Shown here: piece by piece, positions 5,481-15,954 of the stretch
How positions within the stretch are numbered: position 1 is the first letter of the stretch
Layout: each line of letters opens with the position of its first letter
Source of the DNA: Thermoanaerobacterium sp. RBIITD
Lineage (GTDB): Bacteria; Bacillota; Thermoanaerobacteria; Thermoanaerobacterales; Thermoanaerobacteraceae
Assembly: GCF_900205865.1 (NCBI RefSeq)
Contig: NZ_LT906662.1
Coordinates: 3,237,411 to 3,301,410, forward strand
Direction: 5' to 3'
DNA: 64,000 nucleotides
Notes under the pieces: model-generated
The model's input: only the letters and a program-made list of their open reading frames with translations
Told to the model about the DNA's origin: nothing
Databases searched by the model: none
Translations under genes and position numbers: made by a program

Positions 5481-7031
5481 TCATTTTGCATAGTCAACAG
5501 CAACAGTTTCTCTAACAACTATAACTTTTATTTGTCCAGGGTATTCTAACTCTTCTTCAATTTTCTTTTTAATATCACGGGCTAATAAAACCGTCGATTC
5601 ATCATTAACAACTTCTGGCTTTACCATTATTCTGATTTCACGCCCGGCCTGTATCGCATATGATTTTTCGACTCCATCAAAGGAATTTGCAATTTCTTCT
5701 AATTTATCAAGACGCTTTAAATATGATTCAAGTGTTTCACGCCTTGCACCAGGTCTTGCCGCAGATATTGCATCTGCAGATTGCACCAATACTGCCTCAA
5801 CGGTCTGTGGTTCAACATCATTATGATGTGCCATTATAGCATGTATAACATCATTAGATTCGTGATATCTCTTTGCTAACTCTGCACCTATCATAACATG
5901 GGGTCCTTCTACCTCATGGTCGACAGCTTTACCAAGGTCATGCAGTAAACCAGCCCTTTTTGCTATATTAGCATCTGCACCAAGTTCATATGCCATAAGT
6001 CCAGCTAAATGTGCTACTTCTATAGAATGTTTTAATACATTTTGACCATAACTTGTTCTAAACTTAAGTCTACCAAGCAATTTAATTATCTCAGGATGCA
6101 AACCATGCACACCTGTCTCAAATGTCGCTTCTTCGCCAGCCTTTACAATTACATTATCGACTTCTTTTTTAGCCTTTTCTACCATCTCTTCAATTCTTGC
6201 TGGATGTATCCTTCCGTCTTCTATTAATTTTTCTAAAGCTATTCTTGCAACTTCTCTTCTTATCGGGTCAAACCCTGAGATTACGACAGCTTCCGGTGTA
6301 TCGTCAATAATTAAATCAATACCGGTAAGTGTTTCAAGGGTTCTAATATTTCTGCCTTCACGTCCTATAATCCTACCCTTCATTTCATCATTTGGTAATG
6401 CGACAACAGAAACGGTAGTTTCAGCCGCATGGTCAGCTGCACATCTCTGAATAGATGTAGCTATTATTTCTCTTGCACGTCTCTCCGCTTCTTCCTTAGC
6501 TTTTGCTTCTATATCCTTTATCATTAAAGCAGCTTCATGGGATATTTCATTTTTAACATCGTTTAACAAAATGTTTCGTGCTTCATCTCTCGTTAATTCT
6601 GATATTCTTTCTAATTCTTCAACTTCCTTTTGATGCATCGACTTTATTTCTTCTTCTAAATCATTAATTTCCTTTTGCTTTCTTTCAATCAAAGCATCTT
6701 TTTGCTCTAACGTTTCTGCTCTCCTATCAAGAGATTCTTCCCTTTGTATTAAACGCCTTTCTAATCTTTGCAGTTCTCCTCTGCGATCTCTTACTTCCTT
6801 TTCTAGCTCTGTTCTCTGTTTGTGAATTTCTTCCTTTGCTTCCAGCAGCAACTCTCTCTTTTTATTTTCACCATCTTTTTTGGCATTTTCCAAAATAGTA
6901 TGTGATAATTCTTCTGCACTTTTTATTTTGGATTCTGCTATAAATTTTCGTATAAAATATCCAATAAAAAGACCAATTGCTACAGCAATTAATACAATTA
7001 TAGCTAAAATTAATGGACTAATGTTGTTAAT
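5481..7031 (-). CDS. rny: Ribonuclease Y, apparent ATT start
   Basis: Membrane-anchored endoribonuclease that starts bulk mRNA decay in Firmicutes. Domains in order: N-terminal membrane helix ([21 protein letters not shown], about residues 5-25), long coiled coil (about 30-190), KH domain with [13 protein letters not shown] domain ([27 protein letters not shown]) and a C-terminal conserved region. In frame there is no ATG, GTG or TTG between the upstream stop and a TTG at 6893, which would delete the membrane helix. An ATT at 7031 follows AAAGGAGG by 9 bases and gives 516 residues, the usual RNase Y length. I therefore place the start at this ATT. A sigma-A promoter lies upstream. Confidence 0.93.
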
Positions 7032-7111: not shown

Positions 7112-9673
7112 TCATGCATAAATTATATGTGAGCCATTTTCATCCTTTGTAATTTCTATTGTATATGGAAAGATATCTTTAAATTCATCGATATGTGTTA
7201 TGACAACTACCAATTCAAACTCATCCTTTATCATATTAATAACGTCTATAATGTTCTGACGCCCTATTTTATCTTGAGATCCAAAGCCTTCGTCTATTAT
7301 TAATGTTTGTAACTTAACACCCGCTCTTTTTGATAACAATTTTGATAAGGCAATTCTCAATGCAAAATTTATTCTAAAAGCTTCACCACCACTATAAAGT
7401 TCATATTTTCTTTTACCAAGCTCGTCGGAGATTTCTATATCAAGTGTTTCTTGCACTGAACCACTTTTGTTAGTTTTTTGTGTTATTAAACTTACATACA
7501 TTTTTCCGTCTGTAAGTTTTGCAAGTAAATTATTCGCTGTATCTTCAAATTCAGGTAATGCATTCTCTATTATAAGAGCTTGTATTCCTTTTTTGCTAAA
7601 AGAATATTCTAAAATTTCATAATAATGCCTTTCTTTTAAGTTTCTATCTCTTTCTTTTTTTAACTCATTAATTTTTATTTCTATATTTTCGATGTTTTTT
7701 ATTTTATCTAATATAGAGGTAAGTCTTACATTTATATCTAAATAATCCTTATTTGCCTTCTCAATTTTGTTTTTTAAATTTTTAATATCGTTAACTAGAT
7801 TATCATAACCCTTGCTTTGTTCTTTAAAATACTCCATTGTTTTTTTATCATTATTAAGATTTTCCCTGTATATATTGATATTTTTTTTATAAGTATCATA
7901 TGTATTTTTGTGATCCTCAATATTTTGTTTAGATATACTGAGCCTTTCCATTAATTTTTCGTAATTTTTGTATTTTTCATATTTATCTTTTGTCTCTTTA
8001 TACAATTCAAGAGAAAAATTTAACTCCAATAACATATTATCTATATATTTGAGCTTGTTTTTTTCATCATTTGCATAATCGTTATTATTTAATATATTTG
8101 TAAGTTCTTTGATATTGCTATCTAATTCCTTTAATTTGACCAATGTACTATCTTTCTCTGAAAGATTATTTTTTATCGTAATTATGTTTATATTTAATTT
8201 ATCTTTTTGCTTTTGTAAAATTTTTAATTTTGCTCTATCATTTTTAAGTTTTTTTAATTCATCTTGTAAATGAATTCCTAAATCTTTTATCTTAATAATT
8301 TGTTTTTTATAATTATTTATTTTTTCTGTAAAGTCATTTAGCAAATTATTTTTTTTATCATCGTCAAGTGGTGAATTGCAAACAGGGCAAGTAGCATCAG
8401 TATTTGATATTGTGGTGTAATTTTCTTTAAGTTCATCTATCTTTTTATTATAACTGTTAAATTCTGCCTTTAATTCCGCTAATTTTTCATTGTATTCTTG
8501 AATTTTTTCCTCATTTTTTAATAAATCATCATCGATAGAATCAAATTCTTTCATTTTTTCTTCAAGAGCCTTTAATTCCTCACCATCTGCTTCTAACTTT
8601 TTATATTTATCAAGTGTTTCATTGTATTTAATCTTTAAATTGTTAAGCAAAAGTTCGTTTTCTCTTCTAATTATATTTATCTTATTTTTTATATTTATTT
8701 TTTCTTTTTCAAATTCATTAAATTTAATATATTTAGCATCAAGTTCCTCTAATTGATCCTGAAGTGATTTAAAAATATTATATCCATTTACTATTTCATC
8801 TTCTTTATTTAATAGTTCTTTTAATTCTCTTATTTTATTTTCAAGATCTATTATCATACTATCATATTCTGATATAACTTTTTCATCTAATTTAATTCTT
8901 TCACTGTATTCCTTATATTTAATTAATATATCATCCATCTTACGTTTATTTTCTTGCAATATGTCCATTTCCTTAGTTAAATTATCTATTTCAATTTTTT
9001 TGTTATTATATTTTTGAGATAGTTCTACTTTTTGATTTATTATTTCATCTTTGTTTTCAATTTCTTTTAGGTATAATTTTAACTGCTCATCAATTATAGC
9101 AATATTCTTCTCGTATTCACTTCTTTTCATCTTAGCTTTTTCTTGTAACTTATCATATATATCTAAGCCTAATACTTCAGAGAATATTTGTTTTCTCTTT
9201 GTTGGATCAGCTTCCGAAAAGAAGCCAGACTTATTTTGTGGCATAAACGATGATGACACAAAAGTGTCATAATCAAGCATAATGGTATTTTCAATTTTTT
9301 CTTTTGTATCTTCAATCTTCTCCTGCGTTAATGATTTTAATGTTCCATCATCATTTATTATATTAAATTCCAAAATAGAATTAGAATTTCTCTTTTTCTT
9401 TCTCAAAATTCTGTATTTAGTATTATCTATTTTAAATAGAAATTCGACTTCCATTTCATCGGCACCTATTCTTATAAGGTCATCACTACCTCTTCCTGCA
9501 GCATCTAGTCCTCTTGCTCTCCCCCAAATGCACCAGGTAATCGCATCCCATAGAGAAGATTTTCCATTTCCATTTTGGCCTATAATTACAGCAACATGAA
9601 ACCGAGTAAAATCCATCGTTTCATATTCTGAGTATGACATGAAATTTTTTAAAGTAAGTTTAAGTGGTATCAT
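7112..9673 (-). CDS. sbcC: SbcC/Rad50-like ATPase of the Mre11-Rad50-type complex
   Basis: SMC-like DNA-end-processing ATPase that partners the SbcD/Mre11-like nuclease encoded just upstream. The 853 residues show Walker A GQNGNGKSS (about 32-40), two long coiled-coil arms rich in Lys, Glu, Ile and Asn, a zinc hook CPVC at about 429-432, then the ABC signature LYSGGEAFRINFALRIAL and Walker B LIIDEGFGSQD near the C-terminus. It is shorter than E. coli SbcC (about 1050), nearer archaeal Rad50. The start is ATG 9673, overlapping the sbcD end by 4 bases (translational coupling). It is the last gene of the recA-downstream resection operon. Confidence 0.94.
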   Translation of the reverse strand: MIPLKLTLKNFMSYSEYETMDFTRFHVAVIIGQNGNGKSSLWDAITWCIWGRARGLDAAGRGSDDLIRIGADEMEVEFLFKIDNTKYRILRKKKRNSNSILEFNIINDDGTLKSLTQEKIEDTKEKIENTIMLDYDTFVSSSFMPQNKSGFFSEADPTKRKQIFSEVLGLDIYDKLQEKAKMKRSEYEKNIAIIDEQLKLYLKEIENKDEIINQKVELSQKYNNKKIEIDNLTKEMDILQENKRKMDDILIKYKEYSERIKLDEKVISEYDSMIIDLENKIRELKELLNKEDEIVNGYNIFKSLQDQLEELDAKYIKFNEFEKEKINIKNKINIIRRENELLLNNLKIKYNETLDKYKKLEADGEELKALEEKMKEFDSIDDDLLKNEEKIQEYNEKLAELKAEFNSYNKKIDELKENYTTISNTDATCPVCNSPLDDDKKNNLLNDFTEKINNYKKQIIKIKDLGIHLQDELKKLKNDRAKLKILQKQKDKLNINIITIKNNLSEKDSTLVKLKELDSNIKELTNILNNNDYANDEKNKLKYIDNMLLELNFSLELYKETKDKYEKYKNYEKLMERLSISKQNIEDHKNTYDTYKKNINIYRENLNNDKKTMEYFKEQSKGYDNLVNDIKNLKNKIEKANKDYLDINVRLTSILDKIKNIENIEIKINELKKERDRNLKERHYYEILEYSFSKKGIQALIIENALPEFEDTANNLLAKLTDGKMYVSLITQKTNKSGSVQETLDIEISDELGKRKYELYSGGEAFRINFALRIALSKLLSKRAGVKLQTLIIDEGFGSQDKIGRQNIIDVINMIKDEFELVVVITHIDEFKDIFPYTIEITKDENGSHIIYA

Positions 9674-10890
9674 TTGCTGTTCACCTCTTCTCTTAACTCT
9701 TTATATAAAATATTTGCTCTTTTAATTAGCTCATCTTTATCGACATCTAAATCAATAGATAAAAAGTATTTTGAAAGTGCATCTATTGGGTTAAGGCGTT
9801 CATTTACTTCAGGATTTCTTAATGAGCCTTTATCGATATCAAAGTCCCTTTTAATACCAACAAAATGATAACATTTTTGCAATAATAATTTATTTATTTC
9901 CCTATATCTTATGTGTTTATCAATTTCTTTTGTGGTTTTTATGTTTAGTCTGACGATAGAATCACTTAGATCTAATGATTTTATTCTTTCTAATATATCT
10001 TCTGTCGGCGTATCACTTTCAACATCGATTTTTATTGTTTTGAATGGCCTTGAATTTGTACTTATAAATTTATGTGTTACATTATCACCGTCTATAATAA
10101 CATGACAAAACCCTTTTTCGTCTTTCTCTTCTCCAAAATCAATCTTTTCAATGCTACCACTATATACTGTAAGTGGCATATCCCATACAACTTGGTACTT
10201 GTGTATGTGACCGAGCGCAATATATTTATACTGAGGCCTTGCAATAACACTTATTGGAACTATAATATCATCACCTATCATAATACTCTTTTCACTACTT
10301 GTTACGGCCCCCGTTACAGAAAGATGGACTGACAATACAGATGGTATAGATGGATTAAGCTTTGATGTCAGTATACTTAAAATACTGTCTATTTTTTCGA
10401 CCATTTTCTTATTAATTTCATCTATACTTAAATTTTTACTATCTTCTAATTTTAATAAAAAGCTTTTGGGAAAATATGGCAGACACGCAATTTGTATTGG
10501 GCCATTTTTCGTATTTATTAGAAAGATATTGGGTTTATTTGCTACATAAACATTATTAACTTCCAATATCTTATAAATATCAAACGCTCTAGCTTTTGAA
10601 TCAGAATTTGGTTGATCATGATTACCATTATTTATTACTACAGGTATTTTTAGTGATAGCTTCTTTATCCTTTTTGCTAATTCTCTTTGCTGAGTTGGAT
10701 TTGGTTCCCTCGATTTATACATATCACCCGATATTATCGCTATATCACAATTTTCTATAGAATAGTCAACAAACCTATCAAAAGCATTTAAAAAATCCTC
10801 GAGTCTTGTATTCATTCCGGTTTCTTTATCAATAGTTCCATAATTTTCAATACCAATGTGTATATCCGCTGCATGTGCTATATTAATCAT
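9670..10890 (-). CDS. sbcD: SbcD/Mre11-like DNA nuclease
   Basis: Dimanganese nuclease subunit of the Mre11-Rad50-type complex, acting on DNA double-strand ends. The 406 residues carry the five phosphoesterase motifs: ADIHIGIENYG (Asp9, His11), SGDMYKSREP, NGNHDQPNSD, SVHLSVTG (metal His) and ALGHIHKYQ. The region after about 290 is the capping domain and the helices that would contact the Rad50-like coiled-coil base. The start is ATG at 10890 after GGGGGAATTT. It lies 16 bases downstream of herA and overlaps sbcC. Linkage to herA and nurA mirrors archaeal mre11-rad50-herA-nurA operons rather than E. coli sbcDC. Confidence 0.94.
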   Translation of the reverse strand: MINIAHAADIHIGIENYGTIDKETGMNTRLEDFLNAFDRFVDYSIENCDIAIISGDMYKSREPNPTQQRELAKRIKKLSLKIPVVINNGNHDQPNSDSKARAFDIYKILEVNNVYVANKPNIFLINTKNGPIQIACLPYFPKSFLLKLEDSKNLSIDEINKKMVEKIDSILSILTSKLNPSIPSVLSVHLSVTGAVTSSEKSIMIGDDIIVPISVIARPQYKYIALGHIHKYQVVWDMPLTVYSGSIEKIDFGEEKDEKGFCHVIIDGDNVTHKFISTNSRPFKTIKIDVESDTPTEDILERIKSLDLSDSIVRLNIKTTKEIDKHIRYREINKLLLQKCYHFVGIKRDFDIDKGSLRNPEVNERLNPIDALSKYFLSIDLDVDKDELIKRANILYKELREEVNSK

Positions 10891-10906: not shown

Positions 10907-12505
10907 TCAATCTGGAAAAAGTTCGTCTATCTTCTCCTTTTTCATTAAATCTAAAAAAGGTTTATCAATAAATTCATCACCATTAAAAGGTGATATTTCT
11001 TTATAAAATTCTTGATCGTAATTTCTTGTTTTAATAACTACTGGCATTGGAACTGCATGTCCTAAAATTAATGCTTGTTGTTTTTGGTCAAGGCTTGCTA
11101 ATACATTTCGTAATTTACTGGCATTATTAACACCAGATAAAAATGAGCTTATATCATTGTCATCTTCAAGTCTACATGTAATCTTAGTGCCTATCTGTGA
11201 CATTACTTCAGAATCAATCTGTGATGTTCTTTGATCAACAATTAATAGAGTAACATTGTATTTTCTCATTTCTCTTGCAATTTCACCCATTGTAGTTTCC
11301 TTAGATATTGATGGGTCCAAGAATCTATGGGCTTCTTCTATTGTTATAACTAGCGGTATAGGGCCTTTACTATTATTTGCAATGGACTCTTCTGTTTTTT
11401 TTACATACATATCGTGTATATGCCGAGTTATAATATTTGCTACTAGCATGTATCCAAGTGTCGAAACACTTCCAAATTCTATAACAACATTTATTCCCTT
11501 TTGTAAAAAATCCATGATTTGTTTTATACTGTCTGTTGGAACAATATTCATTAAAAACGGCAATTTAATTAGCCTCTCAAGTTTTCTTCTTAAAGCCTGT
11601 AATGAACTTTCATTTGCGCCTATTTCCTTGGCATATTCTTCCATATCGGCTGCATCAATATTTATGAAATTATAGAGCCAATTTTCTTTTTCTTTTTTCA
11701 TTATTTGATAAATACTTTCTAGTGCAGTGCTATTTAAATTTAACATTGAATTTAAAAGCATAATATCATCAGGTGTAATTTGATTATAAGCAATATTTAA
11801 TATGCCATCTATAGGAACATGCCTACGTAATGAAGATTCCCTATCAAGAGTGAAAATCGCAACTTGACTACCAAATAGCTGTTTTAAACCTTTTACATTC
11901 GTGCTTCCCTCTTTTTTAGCTCCATAACCATATTCATTATGTGCATCAAAGATAAGACTTACAGCAGCCTTCGACTTAGCAAGGCCTGATAATAAAAGCC
12001 TTGTTAAATATGTTTTACCAGTTCCAGCCCTTCCAAAAACACCCGTACTGCGTTCGACAAGCTTTTTTAAATTTATACATATAGGTATATCCATTTCCGG
12101 TGGCGTTCCTATATAAAAATTTTCGTCTGAAGGTTCACCAAAAACTGCATATATATCAGTTTTATCAGCGTCTTTTGCATGGGAACCATAGGCTGGTATT
12201 GATTTTACAGTTAAAGCATTTTGATTTTCATCAACCTGAATCATTGGGGAAAGTGTAACAACACCATATACTCCAGTACCATCTATTATTTTTTCATCAA
12301 TTTCGTTATCTACATCGGCTCCATCTACCATGATTTGAGGATTTACAGCCTCATATTTTATATCTGTTACCATACATAAATATTTATTCTTTTTTCCCTG
12401 AATTACAACAAAATTGCCTACTTTTACATCTTCTATAAGACTTCCTTCTGAAAGCTTAATGTCAAGACCAGATGAGATTGATCCTCTAAAAAGTTTACCA
12501 TTCAT
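10907..12505 (-). CDS. herA: HerA-family hexameric DNA translocase (DUF87)
   Basis: FtsK-like ring ATPase that, with NurA, unwinds and degrades DNA ends in archaea and some bacteria. The 532 residues begin with a HAS-barrel (about 1-100), then Walker A GRAGTGKT (158-165), LIFDAHNEYG, Walker B ITIEEAHRFLDP (about 385), a sensor-like VTLLIVDQRTSQIDSEVMSQIGT and a C-terminal lid. The start is ATG 12505, overlapping the preceding HAS-like gene by 4 bases. NurA is encoded two genes upstream and Mre11/Rad50-like proteins directly downstream. Some HerA relatives serve in anti-phage systems, but the recA linkage and housekeeping context favour DNA repair. Confidence 0.93.
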   Translation of the reverse strand: MNGKLFRGSISSGLDIKLSEGSLIEDVKVGNFVVIQGKKNKYLCMVTDIKYEAVNPQIMVDGADVDNEIDEKIIDGTGVYGVVTLSPMIQVDENQNALTVKSIPAYGSHAKDADKTDIYAVFGEPSDENFYIGTPPEMDIPICINLKKLVERSTGVFGRAGTGKTYLTRLLLSGLAKSKAAVSLIFDAHNEYGYGAKKEGSTNVKGLKQLFGSQVAIFTLDRESSLRRHVPIDGILNIAYNQITPDDIMLLNSMLNLNSTALESIYQIMKKEKENWLYNFINIDAADMEEYAKEIGANESSLQALRRKLERLIKLPFLMNIVPTDSIKQIMDFLQKGINVVIEFGSVSTLGYMLVANIITRHIHDMYVKKTEESIANNSKGPIPLVITIEEAHRFLDPSISKETTMGEIAREMRKYNVTLLIVDQRTSQIDSEVMSQIGTKITCRLEDDNDISSFLSGVNNASKLRNVLASLDQKQQALILGHAVPMPVVIKTRNYDQEFYKEISPFNGDEFIDKPFLDLMKKEKIDELFPD

Positions 12506-13071
12506 AAATTACACATCCTTTTGATAGTTATAAATCTGTCAAAATCATTTTTCAAAAATCTTATTAATTCTTTACCGACCTTTATTAGATATGAATCTTT
12601 GTCATCAGAGATATAAGATAAATTTCGTATTGCAGCAGCAACAAGTTCATCTTCGATACCTGTTTTTCCATTTAATATATATTTTACAAAATTTAAATCT
12701 TCTTTTATATCTATTAAATCATCATTATCACAGGCATACGCGAATGTGTGTATCTTAGCGGGTTTTGGTGGTATTATACCCATATATTTATCTCTTCTGT
12801 AACCTATTATTTGTACATCAAAATATGTATGCATTAGCTCAAATATTTGTGGTTGCTGCATTTTAAGCTCTTCTTCAGAAAGACCAAAAGCAACTGGCCT
12901 CCTTGTCTGATCTTCACTCATCGTAGAAACATTATATACAATACCATATATAGTTATATCATTGGATATGGCTTTTACAAAACTTCCAAAATCAGGGCTT
13001 TCATCTAATTTTACAGATTGGCATGTGAATCCTAAGGTGTTTGTTTCTATTATTTCGCCAATGTGGTTCAT
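12502..13071 (-). CDS. HAS-barrel-like accessory protein of the HerA-NurA operon
   Basis: I recognise no named family with certainty. The protein has 189 residues. Its N-terminal 60 (GEIIETNTLGFTCQSVKLD, FGSFVKA, IYGIVYNVSTM) look like the small beta-barrel found at the N-terminus of HerA and ATP synthase subunits. A middle segment follows (IIGYRRDKYMGIIPPKPAKIH) and then a helical C-terminus with a FLKNDFDRF tail. There is no Walker motif or nuclease motif. It overlaps nurA upstream and herA downstream by 4 bases each, so tightly coupled production with both is expected. A role as adaptor or regulator of the HerA-NurA complex is inference. The start is ATG 13071 behind AAGGAG. Confidence 0.85.
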   Translation of the reverse strand: MNHIGEIIETNTLGFTCQSVKLDESPDFGSFVKAISNDITIYGIVYNVSTMSEDQTRRPVAFGLSEEELKMQQPQIFELMHTYFDVQIIGYRRDKYMGIIPPKPAKIHTFAYACDNDDLIDIKEDLNFVKYILNGKTGIEDELVAAAIRNLSYISDDKDSYLIKVGKELIRFLKNDFDRFITIKRMCNL

Positions 13072-14252
13072 AAGATACCACTCCTTTTTCTCTGTGATTT
13101 ATACGAGCGGGATACCTTAATTCCATTTTTAATACATATATTCGATAGCATGTTATAAAACATATCCCTTTCAGAACCTGTAACAACTGCTTGTTCATGG
13201 GCCTCTTGTAATGATATAGGATATCCCTTTCCCTTTTGTGCCTGGTCATAACATATGTAATGTATTAAATCTAAATAATTTGCATCATTTGCTGCCCATA
13301 ATGGTAGTTCTATTCTCGCAACTTCACTCCCTATATTTAAATAAAAGAATGCTATCTTATGTTTGCCATAATTCTCAAGTATGTGGGATGTACTTAAAAA
13401 TAGTGGAGACCTTTCACCATCTTTTAATATCTTTGAAAATATATTTACATCATTAATTTTTGTAATACCACTACACGGCAAATCCCTATCATTTTTTAAA
13501 TAAATACAGTTATTGCAGTTAACAATATCCTGTGGGCATAAAGAGATGTGAAGCATATTAATAAAATCATTGCTTTTAGGTGAACTAATATATCCTACAA
13601 TAGGCGTATTTAAATCCAGTGCTGTATCAAAAGCCTTTAATATGTTTTTAATTATAAATTGTTCGTTTGTATCGCCTTGAACCATCCATTCAATCAAAGT
13701 TCCATCTATAAAAGCTATCTTATTACCAGCTTTTATTTCCTTAATGCATTCTACAACTTTATCATATTCCATAATAGTTCTTTTAAATGTAATATCCTTT
13801 GGTGTAATTAACATTTTTATTCCATTAAAATCTTTAAACAAATCTTCATCATCAAAAAATAATGTTGGTTCAGATTGCATTTTTGCATATGAATTTCTTC
13901 CATAACTAAATATAACATAGCCAATATTGATTAAATAGCATAACTTGATTTCATGCCTATCGGGCATAATTTGAGATCCGTCAACAGCTAAAACGCTATA
14001 ATCTGATGATAATTTCGGTACAGATCTTATATTATCTAAATTTTCTAAAGGAATTGCTGTAAGCCATGAAGTATTACTCGATTCTATTTTTTTTATTAAT
14101 TCTTTTTCACTACCTACTATTTTATTAAATTCATTTAGAGCCTTTTTTACATCATCTATTAATTCACTGTATAAGTTTTTTTCATTTTTTATTAAAGAGT
14201 TTATCATAGGTAATAATTTATTACTATTTAGCAATTTAGTTAACCTCCTCAT
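13068..14252 (-). CDS. nurA: NurA-type 5'-3' nuclease
   Basis: RNase H-like nuclease that couples with HerA in DNA end resection. The 394 residues contain the NurA motifs: LAVDGSQIMPDRH (metal Asp about 91), AFIDGTLIEWMVQG (about 175-188) and the C-terminal YPISLQEAHEQAV (about 345-358), with an aromatic YICYDQAQKGKGYP just before it. A cluster CPQDIVNCNNC could hold metal, but that is speculation. The start is ATG 14252 with GAGGTTAACT upstream, overlapping the end of recX by 17 bases. The C-terminus is basic (RSYKSQRKRSGIL). Function is assigned from motifs plus herA in the same operon. Confidence 0.92.
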   Translation of the reverse strand: MRRLTKLLNSNKLLPMINSLIKNEKNLYSELIDDVKKALNEFNKIVGSEKELIKKIESSNTSWLTAIPLENLDNIRSVPKLSSDYSVLAVDGSQIMPDRHEIKLCYLINIGYVIFSYGRNSYAKMQSEPTLFFDDEDLFKDFNGIKMLITPKDITFKRTIMEYDKVVECIKEIKAGNKIAFIDGTLIEWMVQGDTNEQFIIKNILKAFDTALDLNTPIVGYISSPKSNDFINMLHISLCPQDIVNCNNCIYLKNDRDLPCSGITKINDVNIFSKILKDGERSPLFLSTSHILENYGKHKIAFFYLNIGSEVARIELPLWAANDANYLDLIHYICYDQAQKGKGYPISLQEAHEQAVVTGSERDMFYNMLSNICIKNGIKVSRSYKSQRKRSGIL

Positions 14253-14835
14253 CTGTGAGGACTTTATTTATATCATCTATTTTAAAACCACTTCTATATA
14301 GGTAATTTTTTATTTTTATAATGTCGTTATTGTTCTTAAATTTTTTATTGATAATTTTCTTTATTGTACCTATTTCATCAACATATAAATCCTCAAGCTT
14401 TTTTTTAATGAGAGTCGATTCTATTCCTTTCCGTATTAATTCATTATATATTCTATACTTGCTATAAAGCTTATCTTTCTTTTCCTGTATATATAGTTCT
14501 GTATAATATGCATCGTTTATATAATTTAACTCTCTTAATTTTAATAAAACATTGTTTATAGCTGATTCATTATAATCCTTAGACCTTAATTTGTCTATTA
14601 ATTCTTTTTCTGTTCTCATAGAGTATGAAAGATATTTTAATGCTTCTTTATAGGCGCTTTTTTCTAAAATATAGTTTACATAATATTTATATTGTTCATC
14701 ATTTATTTCTTTTCCTTCTTTTAAATCAAATTCTATAATCTCGTAAATAGAAACAGAAAAAGCATATTCATTATCTATATAGATATTAAATCTTTTATCG
14801 CTCTTTTTTTGCCTTTCAATAGTTGTAATTATCAT
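14236..14835 (-). CDS. recX: RecX regulator of RecA
   Basis: Modulates RecA filament length. The 199 residues have the RecX repeat architecture of three-helix units: ALKYLSYSMRTEKELIDKLRSKDY, VLLKLRELNYINDAYYTELYIQ, YRIYNELIRKGI and a final GFKIDDINKVL. An N-terminal beta extension (IITTIERQKKSDKRFNIYIDNEYAFSV) is typical of Firmicute RecX. The start is ATG 14835. It lies 43 bases after recA, just beyond a terminator that overlaps the recA stop, so recX and the whole resection operon likely depend on partial read-through from recA. Its 3' end overlaps nurA by 17 bases. Confidence 0.92.
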   Translation of the reverse strand: MIITTIERQKKSDKRFNIYIDNEYAFSVSIYEIIEFDLKEGKEINDEQYKYYVNYILEKSAYKEALKYLSYSMRTEKELIDKLRSKDYNESAINNVLLKLRELNYINDAYYTELYIQEKKDKLYSKYRIYNELIRKGIESTLIKKKLEDLYVDEIGTIKKIINKKFKNNNDIIKIKNYLYRSGFKIDDINKVLTDEEVN

Positions 14836-14856: not shown

Positions 14857-14881
14857 GAAAAATAACCCCTCTTAAGGGTTA
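14857..14881 (-). terminator. Attenuating terminator at the end of recA
   Basis: The minus strand has TAACCC, a short loop, GGGTTA (arms 14863-14868 and 14876-14881), followed by a run of T. The upstream arm includes the recA TAA stop codon. The stem is only about 6 bp, so it probably gives partial termination before recX and nurA. Confidence 0.75.
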
Positions 14882-15913
14882 CTCTTCGTGAGCTTTTTCA
14901 TCATCATTTATTGGCTTTGAATTTGCTACAGCAAGATTAAAGTTTTCTCTAATCTTTTTCTCTATTTCATCTGCTATTTCTTTATTATCTTTTAAATACT
15001 GTTTTGCATTTTCCCTTCCTTGTCCAAGCCTTACATCACCATATGAATACCATGCACCACTTTTATCTATTAAGTCGATGCTCGTCGCAACATCTAAAAT
15101 ACTTCCTTCTCGTGATATACCTTCTCCGTACATTATATCAAATTCTGCTTGTTTAAATGGTGGTGCGACTTTATTTTTAACGACTTTTACCCTTGTCCTA
15201 TTTCCGACTACGTCATTTCCTTGCTTTAAGCCATCAACTTTGCGTACATCAAGCCTTATTGTTGAATAAAACTTTAAAGCTCTCCCACCAGGTGTTGTCT
15301 CGGGATTTCCAAACATTACTCCAACCTTTTCTCTAAGTTGATTTATAAAAACTGCTACACATTTAGTCTTGCTTATAACTCCTGAAAGTTTTCTTAAAGC
15401 CTGTGACATAAGCCTTGCTTGAAGGCCAACATGAGCATCACCCATATCACCATCTATTTCAGCTTTTGGTACAAGGGCAGCGACAGAGTCAATTACTATC
15501 ACGTCAACAGCTCCGCTTCTAACTAAGGCTTCAACAATTTCGAGTGCTTGTTCACCTGTATCAGGCTGTGAAACTAGTAAACTGTCTATATTGACGCCGA
15601 GTCTTTTTGCATATAGAGGATCAAGGGCATGTTCTGCGTCAATAAAAGCACCTGTACCGCCTAATTTTTGTGCTTCAGCTAATATATGTAAGGCAATTGT
15701 AGTTTTACCTGATGATTCTGGTCCAAATATTTCGATTATTCTTCCTCTTGGGACTCCTCCAACCCCAAGTGCAATATCAAGCTCGATAGAACCTGTCGGA
15801 ATAACCTCTACATTCAACTTGCTATTGTCCCCTAGCCTCATAATTGAGCCTTTTCCGAATTGTCTCTCAATTTGATTTATGGCCATATCAAGAGCCTTTT
15901 GTTTTTCTATCAT
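14879..15913 (-). CDS. recA: RecA recombinase
   Basis: Strand-exchange ATPase and SOS co-protease. It has 344 residues from the chosen start. Motifs: Walker [10 protein letters not shown] (about 64-72), [18 protein letters not shown], Walker [16 protein letters not shown], loop L1 [19 protein letters not shown] and loop L2 [19 protein letters not shown]. The C-terminus is acidic. The start is ATG at 15913, right after GGGAGGAG; a longer reading from a TTG six codons earlier would put the ribosome site inside the gene. It has its own sigma-A promoter overlapping the end of cinA, so the Bacillus cinA-recA order is kept. No convincing LexA box was found. Confidence 0.98.
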
Positions 15914-15954
15914 AATTTCTCCTCCCGCCAAATTTAGGCATATGCTCTCATTTA

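Follow-up and report, generated by a model that had tools for sequence, protein, structure and literature searches.

Gene arrangement at the locus

The window, a 64,000-nucleotide stretch of a Thermoanaerobacterium genome, carries on its minus strand the genes recA, recX, nurA, a small gene encoding a stand-alone HAS barrel, herA, sbcD and sbcC, in this order. From upstream to downstream, the following features were assigned:

14879-15931, minus strand: recA, upstream of recX (named by sequence reading)
14236-14835, minus strand: recX, overlapping nurA by 17 bp at 14236-14252 (named by sequence reading)
13068-14252, minus strand: nurA, 394 aa, long form with four-cysteine motif (PF09376, 121 bits)
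13081-13085: Shine-Dalgarno-like AGGAG inside nurA, near the overlap of nurA and the HAS gene
13068-13071, minus strand: 4-bp overlap (ATGA) of nurA and the HAS gene, from ORF coordinates
12502-13071, minus strand: stand-alone HAS-barrel gene, 189 aa, intact ORF with ATG start
12790-13062, minus strand: HAS-barrel domain, residues 4-94, full-length PF09378 match
12823-12876, minus strand: predicted helix in the barrel domain, residues 66-83 (low-confidence models; conserved E68, P74 and Q75)
12505-12729, minus strand: C-terminal region, residues ~115-189, probably all-helical (helices from low-confidence models; conserved E142, Y161, G166-K167 and D176)
12514-12520: AAGGATG inside the HAS gene, near its overlap with herA
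12502-12505, minus strand: 4-bp overlap (ATGA) of the HAS gene and herA, from ORF coordinates
10907-12505, minus strand: herA, 532 aa, short form with its own N-terminal HAS barrel (DUF87, 121 bits; partial PF09378 match, 21.9 bits)
9670-10890, minus strand: sbcD (Mre11-type nuclease), 406 aa (Pfam and NCBIfam)
7112-9673, minus strand: sbcC (Rad50-type ATPase with zinc hook), 853 aa (Pfam and NCBIfam)

As recX runs into nurA, the five-gene set from nurA to sbcC directly continues the recA-recX transcription unit. The set lies upstream of a ribonuclease Y-like gene (5481-6893). The initial annotation had described an overlap of exactly four bases between the HAS gene and both of its neighbours, and this was seen at either end. 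Such ATGA overlaps are common in operons and nothing special in themselves. They are present in Thermoanaerobacterium and close relatives; in Caldicellulosiruptor the genes of the cluster are spaced by 7-20 bp with no overlap, and in one genome (G079) 430 bp lie between nurA and the HAS gene. As overlaps are absent from some carrier loci, the gene order and not the overlap is the conserved trait. An Rfam search found no RNA element, and a search for SOS boxes across the window led to no excess over chance and to none near recA.

Domain content and predicted fold of the HAS protein

Residues 4-94 aligned to positions 1-90 of the 90 positions of PF09378 with 36.5 bits (E 5e-9; curated cut-off 25.2 bits), so that the HAS-barrel-like N-terminus, previously noticed as a resemblance, turned out to be a match to the full profile. 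PF09378 also matched in six of twelve diverse family members (E<0.1). The reported absence of a nuclease or ATPase motif held as well: no enzyme family was matched in Pfam, NCBIfam or PADLOC, the latter two giving no match at all, and since neither a Walker A motif nor a DUF87 match was detected, the protein is not a HerA/FtsK ATPase. Searches of PDB sequences with the protein or the family profile led to no significant relative. Two AlphaFold2 models, for which only the window protein and three close loci served as input sequences, gave no confident fold (pLDDT 41.6 and 37.9); both contained strands within residues 4-45, a helix at about residues 66-83 and four more helices beyond residue ~117. 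As models of this confidence are unusable, the fold and the docking surface rest on the sequence profile. Residues ~115-189 are, judging from the modelled helices, probably a helical domain of no named family, and helix 66-83 may be regarded as a candidate docking element by analogy with helix alpha1 of the HerA HAS domain (PMC12977600). The HAS protein is undescribed in its function, as had been claimed, yet its domain is not: PF09378 already has a name in Pfam, and a 'HAS barrel domain protein' is annotated in UCYN-A (PMC12234771).

A HAS barrel had also been proposed for the N-terminus of HerA itself. The match is partial in the window, and orthologues from HAS loci exceed the cut-off: that of G007 scores 28.7 bits and that of G071 30.4 bits, the latter along nearly all of the profile. 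Fission of HerA as the origin of the HAS gene was rejected, as the HerA of these operons keeps its own barrel; the HAS protein is therefore an additional barrel and not a split-off one, and every set in the operon comprises two proteins that bear a barrel. Comparison of the HAS family with HerA by hhalign was not significant with these shallow alignments. The source genome, which entered the whole-genome profile search as one contig of 3.4 Mb, also contains a second HerA of 564 aa (C1:2163168; L117 3148-4842), distant from nurA, with the top HAS-barrel score of the genome (53-56 bits).

Conservation and selection

The stretch 12502-13071 is a real gene. Its reading frame is intact in every carrier examined, and dN/dS values of 0.07-0.11 (versus three congeners or close relatives) reflect purifying selection. 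Over twelve loci the identity of the HAS protein averages 40% with a minimum of 23%, and residues G5, E6, P26, G29, A61, P74, Q75, F84, G90, H108, Y161, G166 and D176 are invariant. As conserved residues are found both in the barrel and in the C-terminal region, the second half is more than just a tail. The distance matrices of HAS, HerA, NurA and SbcD were correlated with Spearman coefficients of 0.73-0.85. The N-terminal domain common to the HAS protein and HerA might also be explained if the HAS gene were a decaying duplicate of the HerA barrel that persists in the operon as a functionless passenger. This explanation is effectively refuted by the purifying selection and further opposed by a pattern that stays invariant between families sharing about 25% identity and by the intact frames, so that we consider it hardly credible.

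Distribution of the HAS gene

A search of 299 genomes from the phylum with a profile of the HAS family (A1), built from twelve members, detected 11 carriers. NurA (PF09376) is present in 57 of the same genomes, including all 11 carriers (hypergeometric P 5e-9, ignoring kinship), and as the HAS protein is missing from the other 46, it does not belong to the core of NurA-HerA systems in general. A sample of 398 genomes, overlapping the 299, gave 15 carriers including one further family (G375), whose locus has the identical five-gene order. Every carrier locus examined, in six families altogether, has the order nurA-HAS-herA-sbcD(-sbcC); with only six families in the sample, kinship inflates the counts. 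Among the 61 nearest genomes, the HAS gene and the matching HerA subtype (members at least 336 bits, next best 47) occur in the same 23 genomes, and neither is found in any of the ten genomes of genus g3, which belongs to the same family, indicating that the set is gained or lost as a unit in this sample. All nine Thermoanaerobacterium genomes that were searched, the source genome included, carry the HAS gene.

No HAS relative lacking herA and nurA was detected in about 400 sampled genomes of one phylum. The exclusive occurrence with nurA-herA in these genomes and the conserved gene order thus lend good support to the suggestion of the initial annotation that the protein is a component of a known machine. 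As the five genes always occur together, co-occurrence cannot single out HerA, NurA or SbcCD as its partner. Viral contigs gave no match, and the HAS protein itself was unmatched in phages and plasmids.

Replacement of AddAB by the cluster was considered and rejected, as two genomes (G009 and G032) have the cluster plus a full AddB. AddB is absent in the Caldicellulosiruptor-like g7 genomes. The AddB-like protein of Thermoanaerobacterium is divergent (about 1040-1070 aa; best pieces 56-133 bits; G000 C1:2646458-2649001) and scores far under the AddB cut-off met by sister genera.

Subtypes of nurA-herA loci

In the carriers, HerA has 531-555 aa and NurA mostly 379-403 aa (422 in one; range about 380-420). 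Every carrier NurA examined contains four cysteines spaced C-x6-C-x2-C-x9-C (CPQDIVNCNNCIYLKNDRDLPC), which might form a zinc or iron-sulfur knuckle of this nuclease. The two-gene nurA-herA(-sbcD-sbcC) loci of the same phylum resemble the HAS loci in gene order, many of them with sbcD and sbcC, but differ in having no barrel gene, a longer HerA (mostly about 595-650 aa) and a mostly shorter NurA (mostly 302-352 aa), and the four-cysteine motif was absent from 14 NurAs of such loci as well as from three haloarchaeal NurAs tested. In a minority of the NurA-positive non-carriers HerA is of a third type and longer still, with about 670-700 aa. In two non-carrier loci nurA and herA are about 2 kb apart, with no barrel protein in between. 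One of these gaps (G209; L066 5645-6952) holds an IscB-like gene with an HNH motif and a RuvC-like start, the other a beta-lactamase-like gene named by sequence reading. Two Caldicellulosiruptor-like genomes (G025 and G026 of g7; L110 and L111) have a second pair of a NurA-like protein and a long HerA (about 680-700 aa) elsewhere on the chromosome.

Possible counterparts in haloarchaea and cyanobacteria

When plasmids were searched by tblastn with NurA, one haloarchaeal match was obtained, at a locus with the order mre11-rad50-nurA-X-herA, in which X is a 'hypothetical' protein of 221 aa. X adjoins herA on three more plasmids, and two of these have the full order. Like the HAS gene, X lies between nurA and herA, encodes a protein of similar length (~220 aa) and has a short overlap with herA; it differs by about 20% identity only, the lack of a Pfam match and longer loops. 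Comparison of the HAS family with X by hhalign was not significant with shallow alignments. The profile scores in both directions were reached by none of 500 column-permuted controls, which preserve how closely the rows are related, and what aligns is the barrel motif, in register. From these sequence comparisons, X is a probable distant homologue of the HAS protein. The haloarchaeal plasmid clusters (L130 1-11657, L131 and L132) have a defence-like neighbourhood, with genes for TerB-N, DEAD-box helicase, phospholipase D or UvrD next to them.

The cyanobacterium UCYN-A1 has 20 orthogroups absent from UCYN-A2. They include entries annotated as 'HAS barrel domain protein', 'NurA domain-containing protein' and 'putative ATPase', whose gene numbers are unlinked (PMC12234771). 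That this HAS barrel domain protein belongs to the same family is a lead from its annotation. If the genes were of the same family, their joint loss without adjacency would argue for a functional and not merely positional linkage.

Proposed role of the HAS protein and alternatives

We consider it likely that the HAS protein is a physical or functional subunit of the DNA-end-processing NurA-HerA machine of these heat-loving bacteria. With somewhat more reserve we favour a third subunit dedicated to one NurA-HerA subtype, the barrel probably being at the HerA/NurA interface; a position specifically between HerA and NurA, drawn from the known complexes, is put forward tentatively. The subtype would comprise a short HerA, a long NurA, the extra HAS barrel, and SbcD and SbcC of the break-sensing SbcCD complex, in one cluster. 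The NurA dimer of Deinococcus uses the acidic HerA residues D78, E80 and D81 to dock on the six HAS barrels of HerA (PMC9960219), and in Thermococcus all HAS alpha1 helices and their preceding loops are involved in docking (PMC12977600). In such known complexes the six HerA barrels make up the ring face that seats the NurA dimer, via HAS helix alpha1 and nearby acidic residues. A HAS barrel co-produced with HerA and NurA most simply belongs at this face, and the extra barrel would most likely sit there by using the same kind of surface. It may act as an adaptor, either from HerA to NurA or from the HerA-NurA assembly to SbcCD, and the helical C-terminal region would hold the other partner. The HerA barrel of this subtype has an acidic stretch that might dock NurA directly, in which case an adaptor would be unnecessary. 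A wider version appears rather doubtful, namely that the third subunit is conserved in Bacillota, haloarchaea and probably cyanobacteria, and that an extra barrel layer on the HerA ring couples NurA and Mre11-Rad50.

As the HAS barrel would mimic the HerA surface bound by NurA, the protein might instead be an assembly factor or inhibitor that keeps either the barrel face of HerA or the docking site of NurA capped as long as no DNA end has been found, and that is displaced once the complex is active. The gene overlaps, together with Shine-Dalgarno-like sites in the gene ahead, point to translational coupling and a matched dosage, which would suit such a cap. However, the conserved second, helical region suggests more than mimicry, and we regard a cap as unlikely. 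A similarly low probability is assigned to a loader, in which barrel and helical region would bind DNA or Rad50/Mre11 and bring HerA-NurA to SbcCD-processed ends. This would agree with sbcD and sbcC being next wherever a carrier locus was examined far enough downstream, with mre11-rad50 upstream in the haloarchaeal clusters, with a HAS-like barrel of a BREX helicase being classed among DNA-binding small beta-barrels (PMC12839542) and with the reported binding of HerA by Sulfolobus Mre11 (PMC2288612). But many two-gene nurA-herA loci adjoin sbcD-sbcC and have no HAS protein; therefore, the SbcCD linkage alone does not require it.

A further alternative concerns the purpose and is compatible with any of these roles: the whole set might serve in defence against phage or plasmid DNA and not in housekeeping repair. 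Haloarchaeal versions on plasmids near helicase, TerB-N or phospholipase-D genes, the patchy presence within families and the proposal of foreign-DNA degradation in a 2026 study of Thermococcus HerA-NurA (PMC12977600) would be in line with it. Against it, the set directly follows recA-recX in the window and occurs in all the genomes of the genus searched, both as expected for a repair operon, and the PADLOC models match neither the barrel protein nor NurA, so that defence as the main purpose seems improbable to us.

A dedicated third subunit, as favoured above, would reveal a definable NurA-HerA subtype with a subunit missing from the biochemically studied systems, and lineages with and without the HAS protein would offer a natural comparison. 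We know of no detailed description of the way in which HerA-NurA is loaded onto DNA ends and cooperates with Mre11-Rad50; a small obligate partner encoded between nurA and herA would be a direct handle on both.

Comparison with known HerA-NurA systems

The domain of the HAS protein is the same as in HerA helicases, with a full-length PF09378 match, but in the HAS protein it is encoded by a separate gene and followed by a probably helical region of ~75-95 residues and not by a RecA-like motor. The nearest solved structure to the window HerA is that of Sulfolobus HerA (4d2i). No description of the HAS protein as a subunit was found in the open-licence literature, a search outside which the original HerA superfamily papers lie. 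As in the window, nurA and herA of archaea (Sulfolobus, Thermococcus) are clustered with mre11/rad50 homologues. The HerA-NurA complexes studied so far from Sulfolobus, Thermococcus and Deinococcus are described as a HerA hexamer and a NurA dimer, with no third barrel subunit in the papers examined. If the wider version given above, which we hold to be rather doubtful, is correct, the machine in the lineages with the HAS protein would be a three-part resection complex, unlike the two-part one that has been studied.
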